A stretch of DNA of 28,385 nt from a virus. Of this stretch, positions 6,354 through 13,614 are shown piece after piece. The notes under the pieces are model-generated. The model searched no databases. It was given only the letters and a program-made list of their open reading frames with translations, and was not told where the DNA came from. Position 1 is the first letter of the stretch. Each line of letters begins with the position of its first letter. The translations under genes were made by a program, and so were the position numbers. The stretch is taken from positions 1 through 28,385 of IMG/VR virus record IMGVR_UViG_3300036909_000074; one strand, 5' to 3'.

Positions 6354-6700
6354 CCACACTCATAGAAGATCGGGACGCGGAGTGGGAGAAGGCGATTGCT
6401 GCCTATCTGTCTAACAATTATGGCTGGGATGACGTCAATGCACTATCCATTGCCAACAAGATTCGCGCCCGTCTCACGCCGCAGCCGACAGCGCAGGATC
6501 ACGTAACGATTGAGCCCTGGATGGGCGGCTGGCGCATTGTGCGCGATGGGGAAGGCTTGTACTGGCAGTGGGATAAGGACACAGCAGACTTGATGGCTGA
6601 CGGCCTGCGCTGGCGGTTAGCGAAGGAGGCAGCAAAAACGCCTGATGAGGCCAAAACGGTGATCGAGAAGGTGTACGCGGCAGAAACGAGGGAACTGTGA
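6350..6700 (+). CDS. Hypothetical phage protein
   Basis: A 116-residue protein overlapping the previous gene as ATGA. It starts with an acidic helix (LIEDRDAEWEKAIAAYLSNNYGWDDVNALSIANKIRARL), carries a compact beta hairpin (IEPWMGGWRIVRDGEGLYWQWDK) and ends in a charged helix. Aromatic residues are frequent in the middle. No transmembrane segment or known motif is seen. The next gene starts with GTGA at its stop, so it is one link in a chain of coupled small genes. No family is recognised. Confidence 0.55.
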   Translation: MTTLIEDRDAEWEKAIAAYLSNNYGWDDVNALSIANKIRARLTPQPTAQDHVTIEPWMGGWRIVRDGEGLYWQWDKDTADLMADGLRWRLAKEAAKTPDEAKTVIEKVYAAETREL

Positions 6701-7329
6701 GCATCATTCTGCGTAATGGAAAGATTCTCAGTAACGAAGAGTTATTTGCCATTCCGGTTGATGGGGATGGTTGGCGAGTATTACCTGATGGCGACAGGGC
6801 TAGAATCGGCAACGAGGCCAGCATCGGCAACGAGGCCAGTATCGGCGACTGGGCTAGAATCGGCAACGAGGCTAGCATCGGCGACTGGGCCAGTATCGGC
6901 AACGAGGCCAGTATCGGCGACTGGGCTAGAATCGGCAACTGGGCCAGTATCGGCGACTGGGCTAGAATCGGCAACTGGGCCAGCATCGGCAACAGGGCTA
7001 GAATCGGCAACTGGGCCAGCATCGGCAACTGGGCCAGAATCAGCAACTGGGCCAGCATCGGCAACTGGGCTAGAATCGAAAAATCCCCTCTTGCTATACA
7101 GGGAACACGCCATCTAGTCACGCAGCATTCAAAAGGCATGATCGCAGTAGGTTGTCAAGTGCTCTCACACAAAGACTGGCTGCGACGCTATGTACGTATT
7201 GGCAAGTGCAACGGCTATACACCTCAAGAAATTGAAGAGTATGGGCGCATTCTCCATTTCGTGATTGATAACGCCGTGCCTATAGGCGTAGTTGAAGCCA
7301 AGGACGAGGCAGAAATGAGGAAACCATGA
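6697..7329 (+). CDS. Left-handed beta-helix hexapeptide-repeat protein
   Basis: A 210-residue protein starting with GTG overlapping the previous stop as GTGA. After a 34-residue leader (ILRNGKILSNEELFAIPVDGDGW) come 15 near-perfect six-residue units, A-R/S-I-G-N/D-E/W, covering residues 35-124. The Ile-Gly at fixed positions is the hexapeptide pattern that folds into a left-handed triangular beta helix. The C-terminal ~80 residues (TRHLVTQHSKGMIAVGCQVLSHKDWLRRY...GYTPQEIEEYGRILHFVI) form a separate conserved phage domain. Acetyltransferases with this fold have a catalytic His and longer, varied repeats; here the units are too uniform for enzyme loops. A structural or binding scaffold is more likely. 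The role is unknown. Confidence 0.8.
   Translation: MSIILRNGKILSNEELFAIPVDGDGWRVLPDGDRARIGNEASIGNEASIGDWARIGNEASIGDWASIGNEASIGDWARIGNWASIGDWARIGNWASIGNRARIGNWASIGNWARISNWASIGNWARIEKSPLAIQGTRHLVTQHSKGMIAVGCQVLSHKDWLRRYVRIGKCNGYTPQEIEEYGRILHFVIDNAVPIGVVEAKDEAEMRKP
6799..7068 (+). repeat. 15 tandem 18-bp units encoding A-x-I-G-x-x
   Basis: The DNA unit is GC(C/T)-AG(A/C/T)-ATC-GGC-(A/G)AC-(GAG/TGG/AGG). Changes are almost confined to the codons of outward-facing residues (R/S, N/D, E/W/R); one unit also has AGC for GGC. There is little synonymous drift, which implies recent expansion or homogenisation by unequal recombination. Confidence 0.9.
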
Positions 7330-7421
7330 GCTTCGCCGCCGATCTTCTGGACAGCGCGGCCAAAAGTAAGATTGGACAAAGTGCAGTAGCCACGCCAAGG
7401 AGGGCAGAATGGCTGATGTGA
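7326..7421 (+). CDS. Possible 31-residue protein
   Basis: An ATG overlaps the previous stop as ATGA, with GAGG six bases upstream. It opens a 31-codon frame (MSFAADLLDSAAKSKIG...RRAEWLM) that ends 13 bases inside the next gene and contains that gene's GGAGGG binding site. The N-terminal half would be an amphipathic helix. It fills what would otherwise be the only gap in this part of the operon. It is supported by spacing only and may be a remnant. Confidence 0.35.
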   Translation: MSFAADLLDSAAKSKIGQSAVATPRRAEWLM

Positions 7422-7984
7422 AGCGGTACGAACTGTTCGGAACATTCTCGCGCATGGAGGGATGTTCTGAGGGCGATTGGGTCACTGACACCGACTACGC
7501 TGCGCTTCTCAAGGTGGCCGAGGAGCTGGTGAATGCGCTGGAGGGAATGGTTGAATACTTTGGTGTTGGACCGCAGGGCTGTAATTGTATAAGGAACGAC
7601 TGCCCGATACGCATTGCCAAGGTCGCACTCACCAATGCGGCGAAGCTGGCCCCAACCCGTACCGGCGGCTCCGGCTACGAAAGGAAAACTATGCCGAGAT
7701 TTACTCCTGGACCCCACGCGCTCGATAGCATCTTTCCCGACGAAGATGGCTACAAAATAGTCAAGGAGGGGAGAAAGCCGCGGCTATTGGCAGTCGTAAA
7801 GAATCAAGGAAGTGCGCCTGTCCATGAAGCGCAAGGCAATGCTCGACTCTACGCTGCCGCACCTGCAATGTACGAGGCGCTGCATCGAGCTGTAACCGAA
7901 ATGGAGTTCTGGTCGAAGGGGTACTCTGACGCAGAGATCGCAATTGCGCGTGCAGCACTCGCCCAAGCCGAAGGAAAACTATGA
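7409..7984 (+). CDS. In-frame fusion of two phage hypothetical proteins
   Basis: A 191-residue frame from the ATG at 7409 (GGAGGG upstream). Residues 1-94 form one module (VKRYELFG...EGDWVTDTDYAALLKVAEELVNALEGM, then CNCIRNDC). Residues 95-191 form another that starts MPRFTPGPHALDS and ends with ARLYAAAPAMYEALHRAV...AIARAALAQ. That ending is a common stand-alone phage motif. The second module has its own ATG at 7691 preceded by GAAAGGAAAACT, nearly the same leader as the next gene's (GAAGGAAAACT). The first gene therefore seems to have lost its stop and now reads through ERKT into the second. Both the fusion and the short product may be made. Confidence 0.65.
   Translation: MADVKRYELFGTFSRMEGCSEGDWVTDTDYAALLKVAEELVNALEGMVEYFGVGPQGCNCIRNDCPIRIAKVALTNAAKLAPTRTGGSGYERKTMPRFTPGPHALDSIFPDEDGYKIVKEGRKPRLLAVVKNQGSAPVHEAQGNARLYAAAPAMYEALHRAVTEMEFWSKGYSDAEIAIARAALAQAEGKL
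7679..7693 (+). promoter_or_regulatory. Internal ribosome binding site and ATG of the second module
   Basis: GAAAGGAAAACT followed by ATG (7691) lies in frame within the fused gene. The gene at 7981 has the same leader less one base. It marks the ancestral start of the TPGP module and could yield a 97-residue protein independently. Confidence 0.55.
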
Positions 7985-8169
7985 AAAACGGTATCCCAGT
8001 AAAAGATGTGTACAGCATCAAGGAGGTCGCCACTATTACTCGTCTTGCCCCCTCGACCATCCGACGCTGGATTCTCACTGACCATCTCATGGCGCATCGA
8101 CTGGGCCAGAAATTTTGGCGCATCAACCAGGCAGACGTGGAACGCATCATCAACCCGAAAGCAGAGTAG
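7981..8169 (+). CDS. Excisionase/MerR-type helix-turn-helix protein
   Basis: A 62-residue protein overlapping the previous gene as ATGA, with AAGGAAAACT upstream. The sequence YSIKEVATITRLAPSTIRRWILTDHLMAHRLGQKFWRINQADVERII is a complete winged helix-turn-helix of the helix_turn_helix_17/excisionase class. An 'SIKEVA' helix, an 'APSTIRRWI' recognition helix and a 'WRINQADVE' wing strand are all present. Such proteins either direct excision by an integrase or act as small regulators. No integrase is in the window, so a regulatory role is equally possible. It is a candidate binder for the palindromes noted elsewhere, though nothing links them directly. Confidence 0.8.
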   Translation: MKNGIPVKDVYSIKEVATITRLAPSTIRRWILTDHLMAHRLGQKFWRINQADVERIINPKAE

Positions 8170-8236
8170 CTGGCCGCACTCGCCGCGCTTGTCCGGTAAC
8201 CTTGTCAACTAAGAAAAGAGGAAAGGTAGAAAACCT

Positions 8237-8929
8237 ATGGAAATTAAGAACATTTACGACGCAGCAATCTTTGTCTCATCCGCACTCACCATAAAAGACG
8301 CGTTGATAGAGGCCATCAACGCTAAAACCGACCTGCGCTGTGCCTACCTGCGCGGTGCCGACCTGAGCGGTGCCTACCTGCGCGGTGCCGACCTGCGCAG
8401 TGCCTACCTGAGCGGTGCCTACCTGAGCGGTGCCGACCTGAGCGGTGCCAACCTGCGCGGTGCCTACCTGCGCGGTGCCTACCTGCGCGATTCCGACCTG
8501 AGCGGTGCCAACCTGAGCGGTGCCTACCTGCGCGATTCCGACCTGAGCGGTGCCTACCTGCGCGGTGCCTACCTGAGCGGTGCCGACCTGCGCGGTGCCT
8601 ACCTGCGCGGTGCCGACCTGCGCTGTGCCTACCTGCGCGGTGCCTACCTGAGCGGTGCCGACCTGAGCGGTAAGAAAATCCATTCGCTACGCTCATTCTC
8701 TTCTTGTATTTATCCCTACGAAGTATGGGCTGTGCTTTATGAAGACGGGTCGCGCTCGGTACGAATGGGATGCTTATTCAAATCGCTGAAAGAGTGGGAG
8801 AATTATCCCATCCTCAAGAGCAACGTCGGAGAATTTCCCGATGATGGATCTGACGCCAGCCTCGACCGTGCTGCCATGTTTGAATTGGCAAAAGCAGCAG
8901 CTCTTCGGATGACCGTTCCCGAAAAATGA
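8237..8929 (+). CDS. Pentapeptide-repeat protein
   Basis: A 230-residue protein with ATG at 8237 and GAGGAAAGG upstream. The N-terminal 30 residues form a helix (IYDAAIFVSSALTIKDALIEAI). Residues 31-145 are 23 uninterrupted pentapeptides A-D/Y/N-L-R/S-G, which fold into a right-handed quadrilateral beta helix. The C-terminal ~85 residues (KKIHSLRSFSSCIYPYEVWAVLYEDGSRSVRMGCLFKSLKEW...) are a distinct domain. Some pentapeptide proteins mimic DNA (Qnr, MfpA) and shield gyrase, but those have bulges and negative surfaces. This one alternates Arg/Ser and Asp/Tyr very regularly, so the target is unknown. The next reading frame overlaps as ATGA. Confidence 0.88.
   Translation: MEIKNIYDAAIFVSSALTIKDALIEAINAKTDLRCAYLRGADLSGAYLRGADLRSAYLSGAYLSGADLSGANLRGAYLRGAYLRDSDLSGANLSGAYLRDSDLSGAYLRGAYLSGADLRGAYLRGADLRCAYLRGAYLSGADLSGKKIHSLRSFSSCIYPYEVWAVLYEDGSRSVRMGCLFKSLKEWENYPILKSNVGEFPDDGSDASLDRAAMFELAKAAALRMTVPEK
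8327..8671 (+). repeat. 23 tandem 15-bp units encoding A-(D/Y/N)-L-(R/S)-G
   Basis: The unit is GCC-(T/G/A)AC-CTG-(C/A)GC-GGT. Nearly all variation is at the first base of codon 2 (Tyr, Asp or Asn) and codon 4 (Arg or Ser), with a few units ending TGT, AGT or GAT. The DNA is otherwise invariant, pointing to recent amplification. All reading frames of the block stay open, which creates long spurious frames on the other strand. Confidence 0.92.
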
Positions 8930-9476
8930 CACCAAAACAGAAAGGCCCAATCCGGGAGGAAAGGGCCACTCTGCTTTACCGAAAGGAAAAACGCATACGA
9001 GGAGTCCACGCCGCGAATGCATTTACAGATTACCGCACCTGTGATACATTTGCAACTGTCCGCGTTGCTAGAATGCAAAAAACCACGACAATTCGTTGCA
9101 CCACGTCAAGGCTTCCGCTTTCCTGCGCCTGGGCAGTTTCTTGCGAATGCCTTTTTCTAAGCGTATGCTGGCCGGTCGGATATGGGTCTAATCCCCCCAT
9201 GACGTGCCAATCGGTATACGGACGGCTTTGGGCGCATATCCGGGCGGGAATACTCGCCTCTCATGGAAAACCAGAGACGGCACGGGGTCAACGTGCTTTT
9301 GGATCAGTGTGACGGGACAAGTTTCCGGCACATGACGGGGCCGGAAAACTCCACGCATAGCAAGCTAACTCCAGCAGCACCAAAGCCGAAGGTTTGCCTG
9401 ATTAGGGATCTGAACCCCATGAGCGCAATGCGACGGGTGCGCTGGTGAAAAGCAAAAACGCCGAGGATGGAAAATT
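8930..9476 (+). other. 547-base region without a confident gene; possible structured RNA
   Basis: A frame opens at 8926 (ATGA overlap with the upstream stop) and runs to 9312, but its translation drifts in composition and is not convincing. The region holds one small candidate gene (9017-9160). Two clean hairpins occur: TTTCCGG/CCGGAAA (9322-9328 with 9341-9347) and AGCGCA/TGCGCT (9422-9427 with 9438-9443). Short frames downstream of 9160 have no binding sites. This is the only long gap in an otherwise gapless operon, so a non-coding RNA or remnants of deleted genes are possible. Confidence 0.4.
9017..9160 (+). CDS. Possible 47-residue protein
   Basis: An ATG at 9017 has GAGGAG 13 bases upstream and opens 47 codons to a TAA at 9158. 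The sequence has strands and helix (MHLQITAPVIHLQLSALLE) and a basic-aromatic tail (KKPRQFVAPRQGFRFPAPGQFLANAFF). It lacks overlap with its neighbours, unlike most genes here. No family is recognised; it could equally be chance. Confidence 0.3.
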   Translation: MHLQITAPVIHLQLSALLECKKPRQFVAPRQGFRFPAPGQFLANAFF

Positions 9477-9746
9477 ATGGATGCTAAGAGCTTAGTTCTC
9501 AGCCAATTTCCGGATGCGTACATTTACAGAACGAAACCCAACGTAGATGTGCGTCGCCCCAGAACTAAAGATGATCCTCCTGCGCTCGTACACTATGTGC
9601 TGTTGAGCGGCTATCACGTGACCGATCCAATGGCGTGGGATGAAGCTGCCCGGAGACTTGTTCCCCGCGACCTGCAAGATAAGCCATGGGCGTGGGAAAT
9701 GTACGTTGCTCTTAAGAAAAAGAACGAAACCCAACAGCCCCACTAG
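9477..9746 (+). CDS. Hypothetical phage protein
   Basis: An 89-residue protein with ATG at 9477 and GAGGATGGAAA upstream. It reads as a compact alpha/beta domain: SLVLSQFPDAYIYRT, then a basic segment (VDVRRPRTKDD), VHYVLLSG, and a helical Trp-rich end (AWDEAARRLVPRDLQDKPWAWEMYVALKKKN). No membrane segment, Cys pair or catalytic motif is present. It restarts the operon after the non-coding stretch and precedes a likely internal promoter. No family is recognised. Confidence 0.55.
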   Translation: MDAKSLVLSQFPDAYIYRTKPNVDVRRPRTKDDPPALVHYVLLSGYHVTDPMAWDEAARRLVPRDLQDKPWAWEMYVALKKKNETQQPH

Positions 9747-9814
9747 GGGGAGATGTATCCAACAGAAAGGAAAACGAAAATTCACAGATTTCCACAAGAT
9801 AATGCAAATACCCA

Positions 9815-9845
9815 TTGATAACTAATACTATTATCATGCTATTAT
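9815..9845 (+). promoter_or_regulatory. Candidate internal promoter with extended -10 and inverted repeat
   Basis: TTGATA (9815-9820) and TGC-TATTAT (-10 at 9840-9845 with a TG extension) are separated by 19 bp in the most AT-rich stretch of the operon, just before the zinc-ribbon gene. TGATAA (9816-9821) and TTATCA (9831-9836) form an inverted repeat between the boxes that could be an operator. The 19-bp spacer is longer than ideal. It would drive the recombination block that starts at 9868. Confidence 0.45.
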
Positions 9846-9867
9846 CGTTGTGTTGGAGGAGAGCTAC

Positions 9868-10020
9868 ATGAGAAGTAAGACGCTTACGGTATCAAGATTG
9901 AAGTGCAAGCGCTGCGGGTACGACTGGCAGACCAGGACACCGGCAAAGCCTCGGCAATGCCCTCATTGCAAGTCACCCAAATGGGACACTGAACGGAAGA
10001 CATCCAGAGAGGAGAAGTGA
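9868..10020 (+). CDS. Small zinc-ribbon protein
   Basis: A 50-residue protein with ATG at 9868 and GGAGGAGAG upstream. It contains two CxxC knuckles, LKCKRCGYDW and RQCPHCKSPKWD, giving a four-Cys zinc ribbon, followed by a short basic/acidic tail (TERKTSREEK). The N-terminus is basic (MRSKTLTVSRLK). It is related to the N-terminal part of the frame at 4094-4372. Such stand-alone ribbons are common in phages and probably bind nucleic acid or RNA polymerase; the partner is unknown. The next start lies two bases after its stop, so translation is likely coupled. Confidence 0.75.
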   Translation: MRSKTLTVSRLKCKRCGYDWQTRTPAKPRQCPHCKSPKWDTERKTSREEK

Positions 10021-10022
10021 CC

Positions 10023-10331
10023 ATGACATTTGCAGAATCATTACGGGCGTACGCCGATTGGTGCGATGAACATCCCACGCTCCAACAGGACTCCCAAATC
10101 ACCACTTATGGAGAAACGGCAGAGCAGGCCAGGGACATCATGCTGGCCGATTCCTCCGCGAAACTCGATCTCTTGCAGGGAAACAGCGAAATTGTCTACC
10201 TGACGCAGACATTCGGCGAGATCACTATTAAGCATGTTCTGCACAAGCATGATGTGTGTGACTTGTCCATCGTAGACAACAAAGTTGTTGCGGGTCTCAA
10301 GCTGGAGTTCGCGAGGCTGGTCAGGCCATGA
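10023..10331 (+). CDS. Hypothetical phage protein upstream of ERF
   Basis: A 102-residue protein from the ATG at 10023, with GAGGAGAA upstream. It begins with a helix (TFAESLRAYADWCDEHPTL), then has alternating strands and helices (IVYLTQTFGEITIKHVLHKHDVCDLSIV). The opening 'F...LR.YADW.D.HP.L' resembles the start of several small phage proteins of unknown function. It overlaps the annealing-protein gene as ATGA, so it may be a recombination accessory factor. This is positional inference only. Confidence 0.6.
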   Translation: MTFAESLRAYADWCDEHPTLQQDSQITTYGETAEQARDIMLADSSAKLDLLQGNSEIVYLTQTFGEITIKHVLHKHDVCDLSIVDNKVVAGLKLEFARLVRP

Positions 10332-11290
10332 ATGAAGAAGAATCCGTTGCAGGTACGCCGATAGCTGTTCAATCGCTCGGCTATGTGACGCTTGCGGAAG
10401 GAACAATCGCATCCGACTATGCGTTGAAGAATCTCAACAAGTCACTCGGCGAAGCGCAGGTGGAATTTTTGCCAGCCGAGAAGAACGTGAAGAACGAATT
10501 TGTCGGCTACAAGTACACTCCACTCGTGGAAATCGTCGCCGCCGTTCGTCCGTCACTCACCAAGCACCATCTCACCGTGTCTCAGTTCCCGGTGGTCGAT
10601 CTGGACAGAAAGACGGTCACGGTTTACACCAGGCTCGTTCATTGGGATTCGGGCGAGTGGATGCAAAACGAAATTGAATTGCCGGGAGAGTTGGCACTTG
10701 GCAAGGGTGGAACTCCAGTCTTCAACCAGCAGACCATCGGCGGCTCTCAGACCTATGGCCAGAAGTACGGATACAAGGCCATCGTAGGTATAGCCGACTC
10801 GGAAGAGATGATCGACTCGACAGAGAAGGAAGCCGACTTGCCCTCCCGGCAGACTCGCCAAGGTGCAACGTTGCACCAAACCGCCAGCACGCAGCAGTCA
10901 AGCCAACAGGCCAACCAACGCGCAGCAGCCCCGCAGGAGCAAGCACGGCCCCAGGCAGGCCAATGCACATTCATCCCACCAAACGGCCTGACCACAGTTA
11001 TCAAGGGCGTCAAGGAAATTGCAGCACAGGAAGCCACTGAAGATCAGAAGGCTCGTAAGGGGTATCTGATGGTGACGTTCCTCGGCACCCACAACGGCCT
11101 CAACTTCGCCTCATGCTTCGACACAAAATATTGGGATGTGCTCAAGGAAAGTGTGGGCCTGGAGTGCTACTTCGTCATCAAGGAGGCCGACAAGAATAAC
11201 CAGCACTTCATGAACATCATCGACGTTCTTTTTGTTGATGGACAAGCGTACTTCGACGGTAAGCCGGTCGTGGAGGGGGAAGCACAATGA
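10328..11290 (+). CDS. erf: ERF-family single-strand DNA annealing recombinase
   Basis: This 320-residue protein would anneal complementary single strands during phage recombination or genome circularisation. Residues ~28-165 match the ERF core: YALKNLNKSLGEAQVEF, then FVGYKYTPLVEIVAAVRPSLTKHHLTVSQFPV, T-R-L-V-H-W-D-SGEW, and IGGSQTYGQKYGYKAIVGIADSEEMID (137-163). A Gln/Ala/Ser-rich linker (~167-212) carries a GGTGCAACGTTGCACC palindrome at the DNA level. The C-terminal ~110 residues (LTTVIKGVKEIAAQE...GYLMVTFLGTHNGLNFASCFD) look like a small beta-rich, possibly OB-type, domain. It overlaps both neighbours as ATGA. The family call is firm; the name Erf is by family. Confidence 0.88.
   Translation: MNEEESVAGTPIAVQSLGYVTLAEGTIASDYALKNLNKSLGEAQVEFLPAEKNVKNEFVGYKYTPLVEIVAAVRPSLTKHHLTVSQFPVVDLDRKTVTVYTRLVHWDSGEWMQNEIELPGELALGKGGTPVFNQQTIGGSQTYGQKYGYKAIVGIADSEEMIDSTEKEADLPSRQTRQGATLHQTASTQQSSQQANQRAAAPQEQARPQAGQCTFIPPNGLTTVIKGVKEIAAQEATEDQKARKGYLMVTFLGTHNGLNFASCFDTKYWDVLKESVGLECYFVIKEADKNNQHFMNIIDVLFVDGQAYFDGKPVVEGEAQ
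10862..10877. repeat. 16-bp perfect palindrome inside the ERF gene
   Basis: GGTGCAACGTTGCACC is self-complementary and lies in the sequence for the disordered linker, where codon choice is little constrained. An identical copy is at 17369-17384 and an 18-bp relative at 5700-5717. Confidence 0.7.
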
Positions 11291-12666
11291 CAGAGTTTTC
11301 AGCAGTAGACCTTTCGGAAGCGGAAGGGATGCAGTGGCAGAAGGTCGATTCCTCGCAAATCAGTGAGATCGGCTATGAGAGCCGGGCAGAGTATCCGCTT
11401 GGCATAAAATTCCCACCCAACAGGAAGCAGGTAGCGGCGGGCGAACCGGGAAGCGAGTACCACTACAAGAACATTACGCCGGAACTTCATGCGGAGTTTC
11501 TTGCGGCAGAATCCATCGGCTTATTCTTCGCCAAGAACATCAAGAGCAGGCCAGACTTGTACCCATTCTTGAAGGTAGAAGCGGACCCTCGGATTCCGTC
11601 TGCTGGTGTGGCGTTAAATACCCAGGCGGTCCAAGAGGATACGAATGGCGACCGACCGTCGCCCAGTACATCACTCTCCATCATCGACACGATGGCCGAT
11701 GATCTGCTTTTCACTCCCGGCGCAGTGACCGATGCGCAGCTTGCAGCCGGACGCGATTGGTACCTCACTGAAGCGAAGAAGTACGACATATCCACCGAGA
11801 AGGCCCGCACCGAACTGAAACGGTTTGCGCGTCCACTCCAGAAGCTCCGCACAGGAATCGAAGCGCGGGCGAAGGAACTGACCGGGGCGACAAAGCGGAA
11901 GATCGCGGCTATCGACTCAGAGAAGCGCCGCCTGGTGCTGCTCGTCGGCGGCATCGAAGATGAAGTTCTCCAACCGCTGACCGCGTGGGAGCAGGAGGAA
12001 GAGACACGAAAGGCAAATCTGGCCGGTATTGTGGCGTGGATGGCGGGGTTCGCGCAGAACTTCCATACCGACATTCCAACGCTGACAGCAGAGATTACCG
12101 AACTGGAATCCTTCGACCTTTCAACTATGCAGGAGTACAAGGTGGGAGCCGAGAGCGCTATTGCCGCATCCCTCCGCGTACTCAAGCCTGAATTGGAGCG
12201 GCGCAAGGTAGCCGAGGCTCAACTCGCCGAACTTGCCAAGCTACGCGCAGAGGCTGCAGAACGCGCAGAGCAGGACCGGCTTGCGGCTATCGAACACGCA
12301 GCGAAGGAACGCGCCGAGCGGGAAGCCGCAGAATCAGTAGCGGCCGCAGAGCAACGGGCGGCAGCGGCGGAAGCCAAGGCAAAGGCTGACCAGATCGAAT
12401 CCGAACAGCGGACACAAGAAGCCTTAAAAAGGGCCGATATTGAGCGCATAGCGGCGGTTGCGAAGGAGCGTCTCAGGATTGAAGACGAACAGCGCGAGGA
12501 GCGGATTGCCGCCGAAACTCGCGCCAAAAACAAAGCACATCGGCTCAAGATCGACAATGAGGCTCTAGGCGCAATTATTGCACTCGACATTCCAATGGAC
12601 CGCGCTCAAGACTTGCTCATTGCCATCGCCAAGGGCCTGATCCCTTACGTCACCATCACGTACTAG
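11287..12666 (+). CDS. KTSC domain fused to a long coiled-coil (DUF1351-like) protein
   Basis: A 459-residue protein overlapping the ERF gene as ATGA. Residues ~18-97 match the KTSC domain: a conserved VDSSQISEIGYE, a PLGIKF strand, YHYKNITPELHAEFLAAESIGLFFAKNIKSRPDLYPF. It is named for the lysyl-tRNA-synthetase C-terminal context in which it was first noted. After a Ser/Pro linker, residues ~145-260 resemble DUF1351-type phage proteins (KKYDISTEKARTELKRFARPLQKLRTGIEARAKEL). Residues ~300-420 are an Ala/Glu/Arg coiled coil. The end (LLIAIAKGLIPYVTITY) is a short motif seen in such proteins. These usually sit beside annealing proteins and may help recombination or act as nuclease inhibitors; this is inference. 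Confidence 0.7.
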   Translation: MTEFSAVDLSEAEGMQWQKVDSSQISEIGYESRAEYPLGIKFPPNRKQVAAGEPGSEYHYKNITPELHAEFLAAESIGLFFAKNIKSRPDLYPFLKVEADPRIPSAGVALNTQAVQEDTNGDRPSPSTSLSIIDTMADDLLFTPGAVTDAQLAAGRDWYLTEAKKYDISTEKARTELKRFARPLQKLRTGIEARAKELTGATKRKIAAIDSEKRRLVLLVGGIEDEVLQPLTAWEQEEETRKANLAGIVAWMAGFAQNFHTDIPTLTAEITELESFDLSTMQEYKVGAESAIAASLRVLKPELERRKVAEAQLAELAKLRAEAAERAEQDRLAAIEHAAKERAEREAAESVAAAEQRAAAAEAKAKADQIESEQRTQEALKRADIERIAAVAKERLRIEDEQREERIAAETRAKNKAHRLKIDNEALGAIIALDIPMDRAQDLLIAIAKGLIPYVTITY

Positions 12667-12697
12667 AACCGTTCTGATTCACCCAAGGAGAGAAGCA

Positions 12698-12874
12698 ATG
12701 CCTGAAGCAACAGCAGCAAAGAAGACGCGCACGAAGCCGGGATTTGTCGGCCGGTACGTGCATATCCCGCAAGCATCATGGGACAAACTCACAGCCTACA
12801 TCGACGCGCACGACCTGGACGACAGCAAGTTCCTGACGCGCATCGTGGCGAAGGCCGTGGACGAACTGAAGTAG
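12698..12874 (+). CDS. Small ribbon-helix-helix-like protein
   Basis: A 58-residue protein with ATG at 12698 and AAGGAG upstream. A basic N-terminal arm (TAAKKTRTKPG) precedes GRYVHIPQASWDKLTAYIDAHDLDDSKFLTRIVAKAVDELK: one beta strand and two helices in the order of an Arc/CopG-type ribbon-helix-helix domain. Such dimers bind palindromic or tandem operators and commonly regulate phage genes. It is a candidate reader of the palindromes in this genome. The fold assignment rests on pattern only. Confidence 0.6.
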   Translation: MPEATAAKKTRTKPGFVGRYVHIPQASWDKLTAYIDAHDLDDSKFLTRIVAKAVDELK

Positions 12875-12895
12875 TCAACCAAGAAGGGAATTGAA

Positions 12896-13192
12896 ATGCC
12901 AGTCTCGAAGAAGAAGTACGTAATCGTTCGTACACATAGCGCCGGAGTCTTTGCCGGTACGCTCGTTTCCCGTGATGGGAAGGAAGTACAACTCTCTGAT
13001 GCGCGTCGTCTGTGGTATTGGTCCGGAGCCGCATCGCTATCGCAGCTTGCTGTGGATGGAACATCGAAACCAGTGGAATGCAAGTTTCCTGTAGCCGTTC
13101 CATCGGTCACGCTCACCGAAGCCATTGAAATTCTTGATGTAACTCCGAAAGCGGAGACCTCAATCAAGGATGTTCCGGTATGGCGAAACTAG
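12896..13192 (+). CDS. DUF6948-type conserved phage protein
   Basis: A 98-residue protein with ATG at 12896 behind AAGAAGGGAA. The sequence KKYVIVRTHSAGVFAGTLVSRDGKEVQLSDARRLWYWSGAASLSQLAVDGTSKP...CKFPVAVPSVTLTEAIEILDVTP...SIKDVPVW follows the DUF6948 pattern as I remember it. Hallmarks are 'VR..SAGVFAG', 'ARR.WYWSGAASL' and the closing 'VPVW'. It is widespread in phages and has no known function. Its last four codons overlap the start of the Gly-Tyr repeat gene in another frame. The tight overlap suggests the two are used together. Confidence 0.78.
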   Translation: MPVSKKKYVIVRTHSAGVFAGTLVSRDGKEVQLSDARRLWYWSGAASLSQLAVDGTSKPVECKFPVAVPSVTLTEAIEILDVTPKAETSIKDVPVWRN

Positions 13193-13614
13193 GCTACGGC
13201 TCCGGCGACGGCTACGGCTCCGGCTACGGCTACGGCTACGGCTACGGCGACGGCTACGGCTCCGGCTACGGCTACGGCTACGGCTCCGGCTACGGCGACG
13301 GCTACGGCTCCGGCTACGGCGACGGCTACGGCGACGGCTACGGCTCCGGCTCCGGCGACGGCTACGGCTCCGGCTACGGCGACGGCTACGGCTCCGGCTA
13401 CGGCGACGGCGACGGCGACGGCTACGGCTCCGGCTCCGGCGACGGCGACGGCTACGGCTCCGGCTACGGCGACGGCGACGGCGACGGCTCCGGCTACGGC
13501 GACGGCGACGGCTACGGCTCCGGCTACGGCTACGGCTACGGCTACGGCTCCGGCTACGGCTACGGCTCCGGCTACGGCTACGGCTACGGCTACGGCTCCG
13601 GCTACGGCGAATAA
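13180..13614 (+). CDS. Gly-Tyr/Gly-Ser/Gly-Asp repeat protein
   Basis: A 144-residue protein starting at the ATG at 13180, with AAGGA ten bases before it. It is MAKL, then 139 residues in which every other residue is Gly and the alternate one is Tyr, Ser or Asp, then Glu and stop. No fold is expected. Composition resembles silk-like, adhesive or condensate-forming disordered proteins, with Tyr as 'stickers'. The repeat keeps all frames open; I choose this frame because of its start, its binding site and the invariant GGC. An Arg/Leu frame (13170-13712) is the main rival. Similar GYG/GDG/GSG proteins exist in other phages, without a known role. Confidence 0.7.
   Translation: MAKLGYGSGDGYGSGYGYGYGYGDGYGSGYGYGYGSGYGDGYGSGYGDGYGDGYGSGSGDGYGSGYGDGYGSGYGDGDGDGYGSGSGDGDGYGSGYGDGDGDGSGYGDGDGYGSGYGYGYGYGSGYGYGSGYGYGYGYGSGYGE
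13192..13608 (+). repeat. About 70 tandem hexamers GGC-(TAC/TCC/GAC)
   Basis: 417 bases consist only of GGC alternating with TAC, TCC or GAC. The combination GCC (Ala), which would complete the two-position T/G and A/C set, never occurs. There is no synonymous drift and no interruption, so the block is either very young or under strong constraint. Confidence 0.95.

Follow-up and report, generated by a model that had tools for sequence, protein, structure and literature searches.

The stretch of DNA analyzed here, referred to as the window, is the viral IMG/VR record IMGVR_UViG_3300036909_000074 at its full length of 28,385 bases, and the main subject is a two-gene module in which a gene of the DUF6948 family is followed by a gene encoding glycine alternating with another residue (Gly-X, hereafter GX). 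When the window was searched with Tandem Repeats Finder (TRF), exactly three tandem arrays were found and none besides: 18 bp x 15.7 at 6797-7078, 15 bp x 22.7 at 8331-8671, and 6 bp x 69.5 at 13192-13608. Counted in frame, they correspond to 16 hexapeptide units of 18 bp (6799-7086), 23 pentapeptide units of 15 bp (8330-8674) and 70 GX units of 6 bp (13192-13611), all on the + strand. A first-pass annotation had described three repeat genes with nearly identical DNA units, and this was borne out by TRF, by the in-frame counts and, for two of the genes, by Pfam. Its counts for the pentapeptide and GX arrays were also correct, whereas it gave the hexapeptide array 15 units.

The DUF6948 gene (12896..13192, + strand) is the first gene of the module and encodes a protein of 98 aa, which matched PF22253 with 108 bits against a cut-off of 27 (E 2.6e-31) and is a member of that family. 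The GX gene (13180..13614, + strand) is an open reading frame for a low-complexity protein of 144 aa, consisting of MAKL followed by (Gly-Tyr/Ser/Asp)n, and its position, start and composition are as in 80 viral relatives; no Pfam family above cut-off was found for its product. The stop of DUF6948 and the start of GX overlap by 13 nt (13180..13192, + strand), with the GX ATG overlapping the codon for Trp96 of DUF6948, a residue that is invariant among relatives. Exactly the same overlap was present in 70 of 78 junctions of the related viral loci, which are the 80 loci fetched by a search with the window DUF6948 gene; here and below, labels of L and a number stand for the loci compared with the window. 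A Gly-X array was found 3' of DUF6948 at all 80 of them, being short or degenerate at two (L066 and L115), and the pair was found at most of 64 loci from bacterial genomes. When neighborhoods were clustered, 66 loci contained the DUF6948 family, and ERF, which ranked next among real neighbor families, was in only 10. These findings show that DUF6948 and GX are the only conserved neighbors, that nothing else nearby is comparably kept, and therefore that the pair moves alone between otherwise different phages.

Named isolates that carry the module include the Ymer-genus Pectobacterium phages, Dickeya phage Setonix, Iodobacter phage PhiPLPE, Vibrio phage IKEMa6-1 and Chlorobiaceae phage CV-1-33. 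The genome search found the module in prophages and in contigs assigned to Acidobacteria, Bacteroidales, Clostridia, Chlamydiae, cyanobacteria and others, many of them being metagenome-assembled genomes, so that these host labels are weak. The gene order was reversed in one spring-water phage (L201), where the array lies upstream of DUF6948, and two tandem DUF6948-GX modules were found in L088:7303-8432, their DUF6948 genes matching at 241 of 272 aligned bases. Several tandem GX genes follow a single DUF6948 gene in L082:8370-9236 and have a common N-terminus (MATVNDSK) and C-terminus (GCGDSTGRG). In L127 (MT192033.1), L128 (EU876853.1) and L202 (PP738966.1), the GX gene is unannotated or annotated in another frame, because the repeat keeps two or three frames open. 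No mention of DUF6948 was found in the literature searched, and as far as that literature shows the module is apparently undescribed and unnamed. PADLOC gave no useful match that would link it to a defense system.

When DUF6948 was modeled by AlphaFold2 with 67 relatives, a small beta-barrel was obtained (predicted local distance difference test, pLDDT, 95; predicted template modeling score, pTM, 0.86). In a Foldseek search of the PDB with this model, Sm/LSm chains stood at the head of the list and made up nearly all of the top 50 matches, the remainder including Edc3 and NatC subunits. Template modeling (TM) scores were 0.42-0.59 by query and at most 0.70 by target, and the best E-value was 2.6e-3. 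In a profile search of the PDB sequences with DUF6948 no Sm match was found, the best match being unrelated (E 0.78), and the protein is therefore labelled Sm-like by fold only. DUF6948 is thus predicted to be an Sm-like small beta-barrel.

In the window GX array, Gly was always encoded by GGC and X by TAC in 35 units, TCC in 17 and GAC in 17, with GGC-GAA as the closing unit, and there was not one silent change across the 70 units. Composition was then taken from 103 arrays, comprising 65 distinct viral arrays and 38 arrays from bacterial genome contigs, and arrays ranged from 12 to 74 units. Within arrays, the mean entropies at unit positions 1 to 6 of the viral set were 0, 0, 0.10, 0.94, 1.05 and 0.18 bits, compared to 0, 0, 1.46, 1.19, 1.35 and 0.76 bits when the same arrays were pooled, indicating that phages differ from one another in the silent third base of Gly, which hardly varies inside one array. 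The genome-contig arrays showed the same pattern, and in 103 of 103 arrays the two replacement positions varied more than the two silent positions. The third base of the Gly codon was any of the four across arrays, and that of X was C or T in approximately 98% of units. Many gut prophages have a conserved and confidently modeled C-terminal domain in frame behind the array (motif FAHGxTLxEAF ... WHHxLTGSC; L164:4459-4914 and relatives), for which no PDB or Pfam match was found, and a conserved GX N-terminus, M-E-x-I-x-x-F-L-x-V. From these codon and reading-frame patterns, the GX array is almost certainly translated as protein.

A reading of the tract as a noncoding repeat guide RNA, with DUF6948 as its RNA-binding partner, has to be weighed against translation. 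In VIPR, noncoding 5-nt YNNGG repeats with hypervariable NN, the vrRNAs, go with a RAMP protein of approximately 20 kDa with an RRM core (PMC13142463). Both are small phage modules in which GGY/NN-like tandem repeats stand beside a protein of RNA-binding-type fold, and the alternation of a constant GG(C/T) with variable dinucleotides next to DUF6948 bears a superficial likeness to such guides. In contrast, the GX unit is 6 nt and not 5, its arrays exceed the 9-16 units of VIPR in range, TA, TC and GA make up most of the dinucleotides, and some arrays have G or A as the constant base. The in-frame folded domain of the gut prophages also argues against noncoding RNA, and DUF6948 resembles Sm folds and not RRM or RAMP. 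Neither a 5-nt noncoding repeat nor a RAMP of approximately 20 kDa was found in DUF6948-GX; it has 6-nt codon repeats translated to Gly-X and an Sm-like protein of 98 aa. Unit length, dinucleotide alphabet, codon signature and partner fold effectively rule out a VIPR-like guide RNA, and we regard this reading as highly improbable. The case also cautions that GG-NN-type repeats beside a small phage gene need not be guide RNAs.

The residue make-up of the arrays was conserved across silent backgrounds. X was Ser, Tyr and Asp in 36%, 28% and 25% of units, respectively, in the viral arrays, and in 35%, 30% and 26% in the genome arrays. The mix was nearly equal on GGC-NNC, GGC-NNT, GGT-NNC and GGG-NNC backgrounds; in four GGA-NNC arrays Tyr and Asp were kept and Ser was lower. 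On the DUF6948 tree, which is poorly resolved, parsimony required 21 switches of silent background, and in six arrays Ser was encoded by AGY instead of TCN. Codon usage was rejected as the source of the silent uniformity: usage at the locus predicts 3.4 bits per GX unit, compared to 0.15 observed, and L088 carries one GGT-NNC and one GGG-NNT array in a single phage, so that host codon usage is not the cause. Separately, the GGG-NNC arrays (L058-L061, L084, L085, L097 and L098) have the form (G3N3)n, which gives their coding strand the potential for strong G-quadruplexes, a pattern that was not conserved on other GX backgrounds.

These patterns bear on the possibility that the arrays are ordinary coding minisatellites, made and homogenized by slippage, in which variation at replacement sites arose by chance and the residue mix is not selected. 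It agrees with the abundance of coding tandem arrays in these phages, and the hexapeptide and pentapeptide arrays of the window cannot reject chance when taken by themselves. The inner pentapeptide units had seven replacement variants and no silent ones, and the hexapeptide array has silent variation (GCT/GCC and AGC/AGT, mostly tied to the choice of R or S); with an expected silent fraction of 0.22-0.33, the independent variants are too few for the deficit to be significant. Significance was gained on pooling relatives, where silent variant alleles numbered 25 of 201 for GX (57 expected; P 4e-8), 11 of 81 for pentapeptide (22 expected; P 0.002) and 3 of 35 for hexapeptide arrays (8 expected; P 0.02), P values that treat arrays as independent when related phages are not. 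The concentration of variation at replacement bases claimed in the first-pass annotation therefore stands on pooling; the near absence of silent drift that it also claimed holds for GX and the inner pentapeptide units and fails for the hexapeptide array. For GX, the excess of replacement over silent variation in every array, the return of the Ser/Tyr/Asp proportions after so many background switches and the retention of Ser through the TCN to AGY recoding make chance variation in minisatellites unlikely. Selection of the GX protein for its residue make-up, Ser, Tyr and Asp alternating with Gly, and not for their order is well supported by these comparisons.

The arrays change between phages whose flanking DNA does not. 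Phages Ymer and Amona differ by approximately 5% over their aligned genomes, but the flanks of the GX array match without a single difference through at least 3,000 bp toward DUF6948 and 1,704 bp in the opposite direction; the arrays encode GX proteins of 73 aa in Ymer and 67 aa in Amona, with scrambled order. Six Ymer-genus isolates share 594-600 identical bases 3' of the GX gene and have five different arrays, those of Ymer and Abuela being the same. Contigs L058 and L059 agree at 996/1000, 278/278 and 830/843 flanking bases and differ in their arrays, and the L059 array holds a run that is shifted out of frame and then back. Contigs L068 and L077 (flanks 265/266 and 686/686) have arrays of equal length with two in-place swaps of GAC and TCC units, and since each swap requires two adjacent base changes, templated unit conversion is suggested rather than insertion or deletion. 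Eight contigs with identical flanks (L042-L049) were concordant wherever the array was covered, two of them ending within it. Flanks of the window and of L042 match at 91-94%, and their arrays, of 70 and approximately 52 units, respectively, are unrelated in unit order. The array was rejected as a recombination seam of mosaic genomes, since the blocks of identity run past it on both sides.

These findings show that silent bases are homogenized within each array and that identical flanks can enclose arrays of scrambled unit order in different phages. GX is a fast-turnover array of the variable number tandem repeat (VNTR) type, and array change between fixed flanks, which the first-pass annotation had anticipated for all three repeat genes, was observed for GX (Ymer/Amona, L058/L059 and L068/L077). 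For the pentapeptide array it was seen in one paralogue pair, in L037, where the C-terminal flanks are identical at 228 of 230 bases and the arrays differ; the relatives of the hexapeptide gene are either identical copies or distant ones and so give no contrast of length or order. Like VNTR and contingency loci, which are short tandem repeats that quickly gain, lose and reorder units, GX turns over rapidly; in contrast to them, its residue mix is conserved across silent backgrounds, and because the 6-nt units preserve the reading frame, on/off switching is not expected. Rapid turnover of units together with selection on residue make-up is well supported by the array comparisons.

Confinement of the variation to bases 1 and 2 of the X codons could also have pointed to a diversity-generating retroelement or to other targeted mutagenesis of these codons, since retroelements likewise concentrate replacement variation in a phage gene. 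No reverse transcriptase (PF00078) was found in 50 related records when controls were positive, in agreement with the first-pass annotation, and the arrays also differ in length and in the order of their units. A retroelement is largely ruled out by this absence, and targeted mutagenesis as a whole appears extremely improbable.

The first-pass annotation had proposed that an ERF single-strand annealing protein could drive recombination in the arrays, so that surfaces carried by rigid or disordered scaffolds would be varied with no need of reverse transcriptase. The ERF gene of the window was confirmed (10328..11290, + strand; PF04404 E 4.5e-18; PHROG 155 E 2.7e-27) and is a candidate aid to turnover. 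Immediately 3' of it lies a gene at 11287-12666 whose product, of 459 aa, combines a KTSC domain at its N-terminus with a region of the PHROG 1376 family. The proposal agrees with arrays that change between identical flanks, with the excess of replacement variants, and with the ERF or other annealing genes that adjoin the module in some phages. As a driver of the arrays, however, ERF did not hold up: only 12 of 50 module-bearing records contained it, and RecT turned up in 4 of 41, counts in which fragments may have missed some. Variable surfaces for the GX protein fared no better: it is of low complexity with composition kept and order lost, and a patternless order with fixed composition fits a disordered protein in which order is free and not a selected surface. 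The genes also lie among early genes and not virion genes. Finally, the single system of three arrays was not upheld, since the GX gene goes with DUF6948, the three arrays were not found together as a set, and no link among the three array genes beyond co-residence was found. Surface variation driven by ERF is thus quite unlikely.

The overlap, co-conservation and co-transfer of DUF6948 and GX support a joint function. We slightly favor the explanation that they form a two-gene phage cassette in which the array is scrambled and its composition selected, an Sm-like protein having a disordered partner. Turnover would proceed by replication slippage, template switching or recombination inside the array, with whatever recombination functions the phage and host possess; selection would hold the mix of Ser, Tyr and Asp, and silent sites would, array by array, become fixed by drift. 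The DUF6948 product may bind nucleic acid as an Sm-like protein, perhaps in the form of a ring, and the GX protein may serve as its disordered tail or partner, encoded by a gene of its own; in the GX protein, Tyr would act as stickers, Gly and Ser as spacers and Asp as negative charge. The pair may make an RNA-protein assembly or tune RNA binding, as is done in Hfq, an Sm protein in which RNA binding is regulated by an acidic disordered tail (PMC5606850). The other two repeat genes, hexapeptide and pentapeptide, would be separate beta-solenoid genes with the same mode of array evolution.

Several points weigh against this explanation. The only pointers to a physical interaction between the DUF6948 and GX products are the gene overlap and the co-conservation, and the predicted Sm-like fold was assigned at weak E-values of 0.003-0.03. 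For the Ymer genus, the genomes are metaSPAdes assemblies of Illumina reads (PMC11445585), and array order in such short-read assemblies could contain error, although the concordance of L042-L049 where the array is covered speaks against this. Duplicated multi-unit stretches beyond those in shuffled arrays were found in only 13 of 37 long arrays, and single-unit conversion or very fast turnover is therefore needed besides block duplication.

An Sm-like protein with an acidic disordered partner might instead be a counter-host device that imitates either nucleic acid or an Sm protein of the host and blocks Hfq or Rho, with the scrambling being neutral. The predicted fold of DUF6948 and the share of Asp, about a quarter of X residues, would suit such a device, and Rof, an Sm-like protein that blocks Rho, is a precedent (PMC11018626). 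In contrast, DUF6948 has no sequence match to known Sm proteins, the module occurs in phages of very different hosts, and Tyr and Ser are constrained as much as Asp. A counter-host role is therefore unlikely, though it deserves some weight.

Returning to the cassette with a disordered partner, its closest functional analogue is probably an Sm protein whose tail is disordered, with barrel and tail divided here between two genes. Hfq and LSm proteins with disordered low-complexity tails share with it the predicted Sm-like barrel and the acidic disordered tract (PMC5606850), and differ in that the GX tract is a separate overlapping gene arising from a fast-turning hexanucleotide array and that the Sm membership of DUF6948 is by fold only. 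Tyr in a Gly/Ser context drives phase separation through distributed Tyr motifs (PMC5704491). The [G/S]Y[G/S] domains of the FUS type resemble GX in having Tyr spaced by Gly and Ser, and in them composition is thought to weigh more than order (PMC5704491); in contrast, GX is a phage protein with strict Gly at every second residue, rich in Asp and hypervariable in length and order. DUF6948-GX would offer a compact natural test of disordered-protein evolution, with composition kept, order free and silent sites recording repeated rewriting, in which simple phages can be used to address whether selection sees only the composition of a low-complexity protein. The module is common in phages of many phyla, and it suggests a phage Sm-like RNA-protein system. 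More tentatively, it may be a new and widespread phage ribonucleoprotein device with a fixed recipe and ever-changing length and sequence that tune a condensate or evade host recognition of the protein or gene, a reading we hold to be rather doubtful. Only if scrambling itself is the function would the module be categorically new.

The hexapeptide gene (6697..7329, + strand) encodes a protein of 210 aa with a C-terminal domain at approximately 7087-7326. It matched Pfam Hexapep with 61.2 bits against a cut-off of 27 (E 5.1e-17), which places it in the left-handed beta-helix family. Its C-terminal domain is common to L121, L217 and L218; a search with this domain found distant phage matches only and no close relative of the window gene. 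The pentapeptide gene (8237..8929, + strand) encodes a protein of 230 aa with a C-terminal domain at approximately 8675-8926 and matched Pfam Pentapeptide with 141.2 bits against a cut-off of 20.2 (E 5.8e-42), placing it in that family; its relatives are in L037 (two copies), L038, L039 and L208-L211. Matches in Pfam/NCBIfam and the PDB place both proteins in large, known families of repeat proteins, alongside the Qnr/MfpA/HetL-like pentapeptide and LpxA/GlmU-like hexapeptide proteins. They differ from these in their nearly identical DNA units and phage-specific C-terminal domains, and no NCBIfam equivalog cut-off was reached, the pentapeptide protein scoring 65.9 bits against 360 for MfpA and 42.6 against 240 for Qnr. 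The entropy of the codon given its amino acid was near 0 in most of 19 related arrays, an old-looking one in L115 being the exception, and near-zero silent variation is therefore a general trait of such phage repeat proteins. The single operon of the first-pass annotation is plausible, the array genes having a common strand and terminator-like sites among them showing no excess over chance.

The C-terminal domains of the two proteins share a short motif, [IV]xxGC..[ST]xx[DE]W, and common ancestry was rejected, the probability in a profile comparison being 5%. In L208:2782-3291, the pentapeptide C-terminal domain stands behind another repeat (GGxW), indicating that this cap has been exchanged between repeat types. 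A 27-bp coding array, HSATTG[YND][SY]A, with 25 nearly identical units was found in L053:1-691, alongside the GX and pentapeptide arrays of that phage. More coding arrays of nearly identical units were present in GX phages at L127:4426-4915, L058:4724-5060, L116:7166-7695 and L046:986-1157, their units being NAENPEKAREYQRKW, LRPERVGH, leucine-rich and RDAAWDAA, respectively, and GX phages thus seem to be rich in repeat genes.

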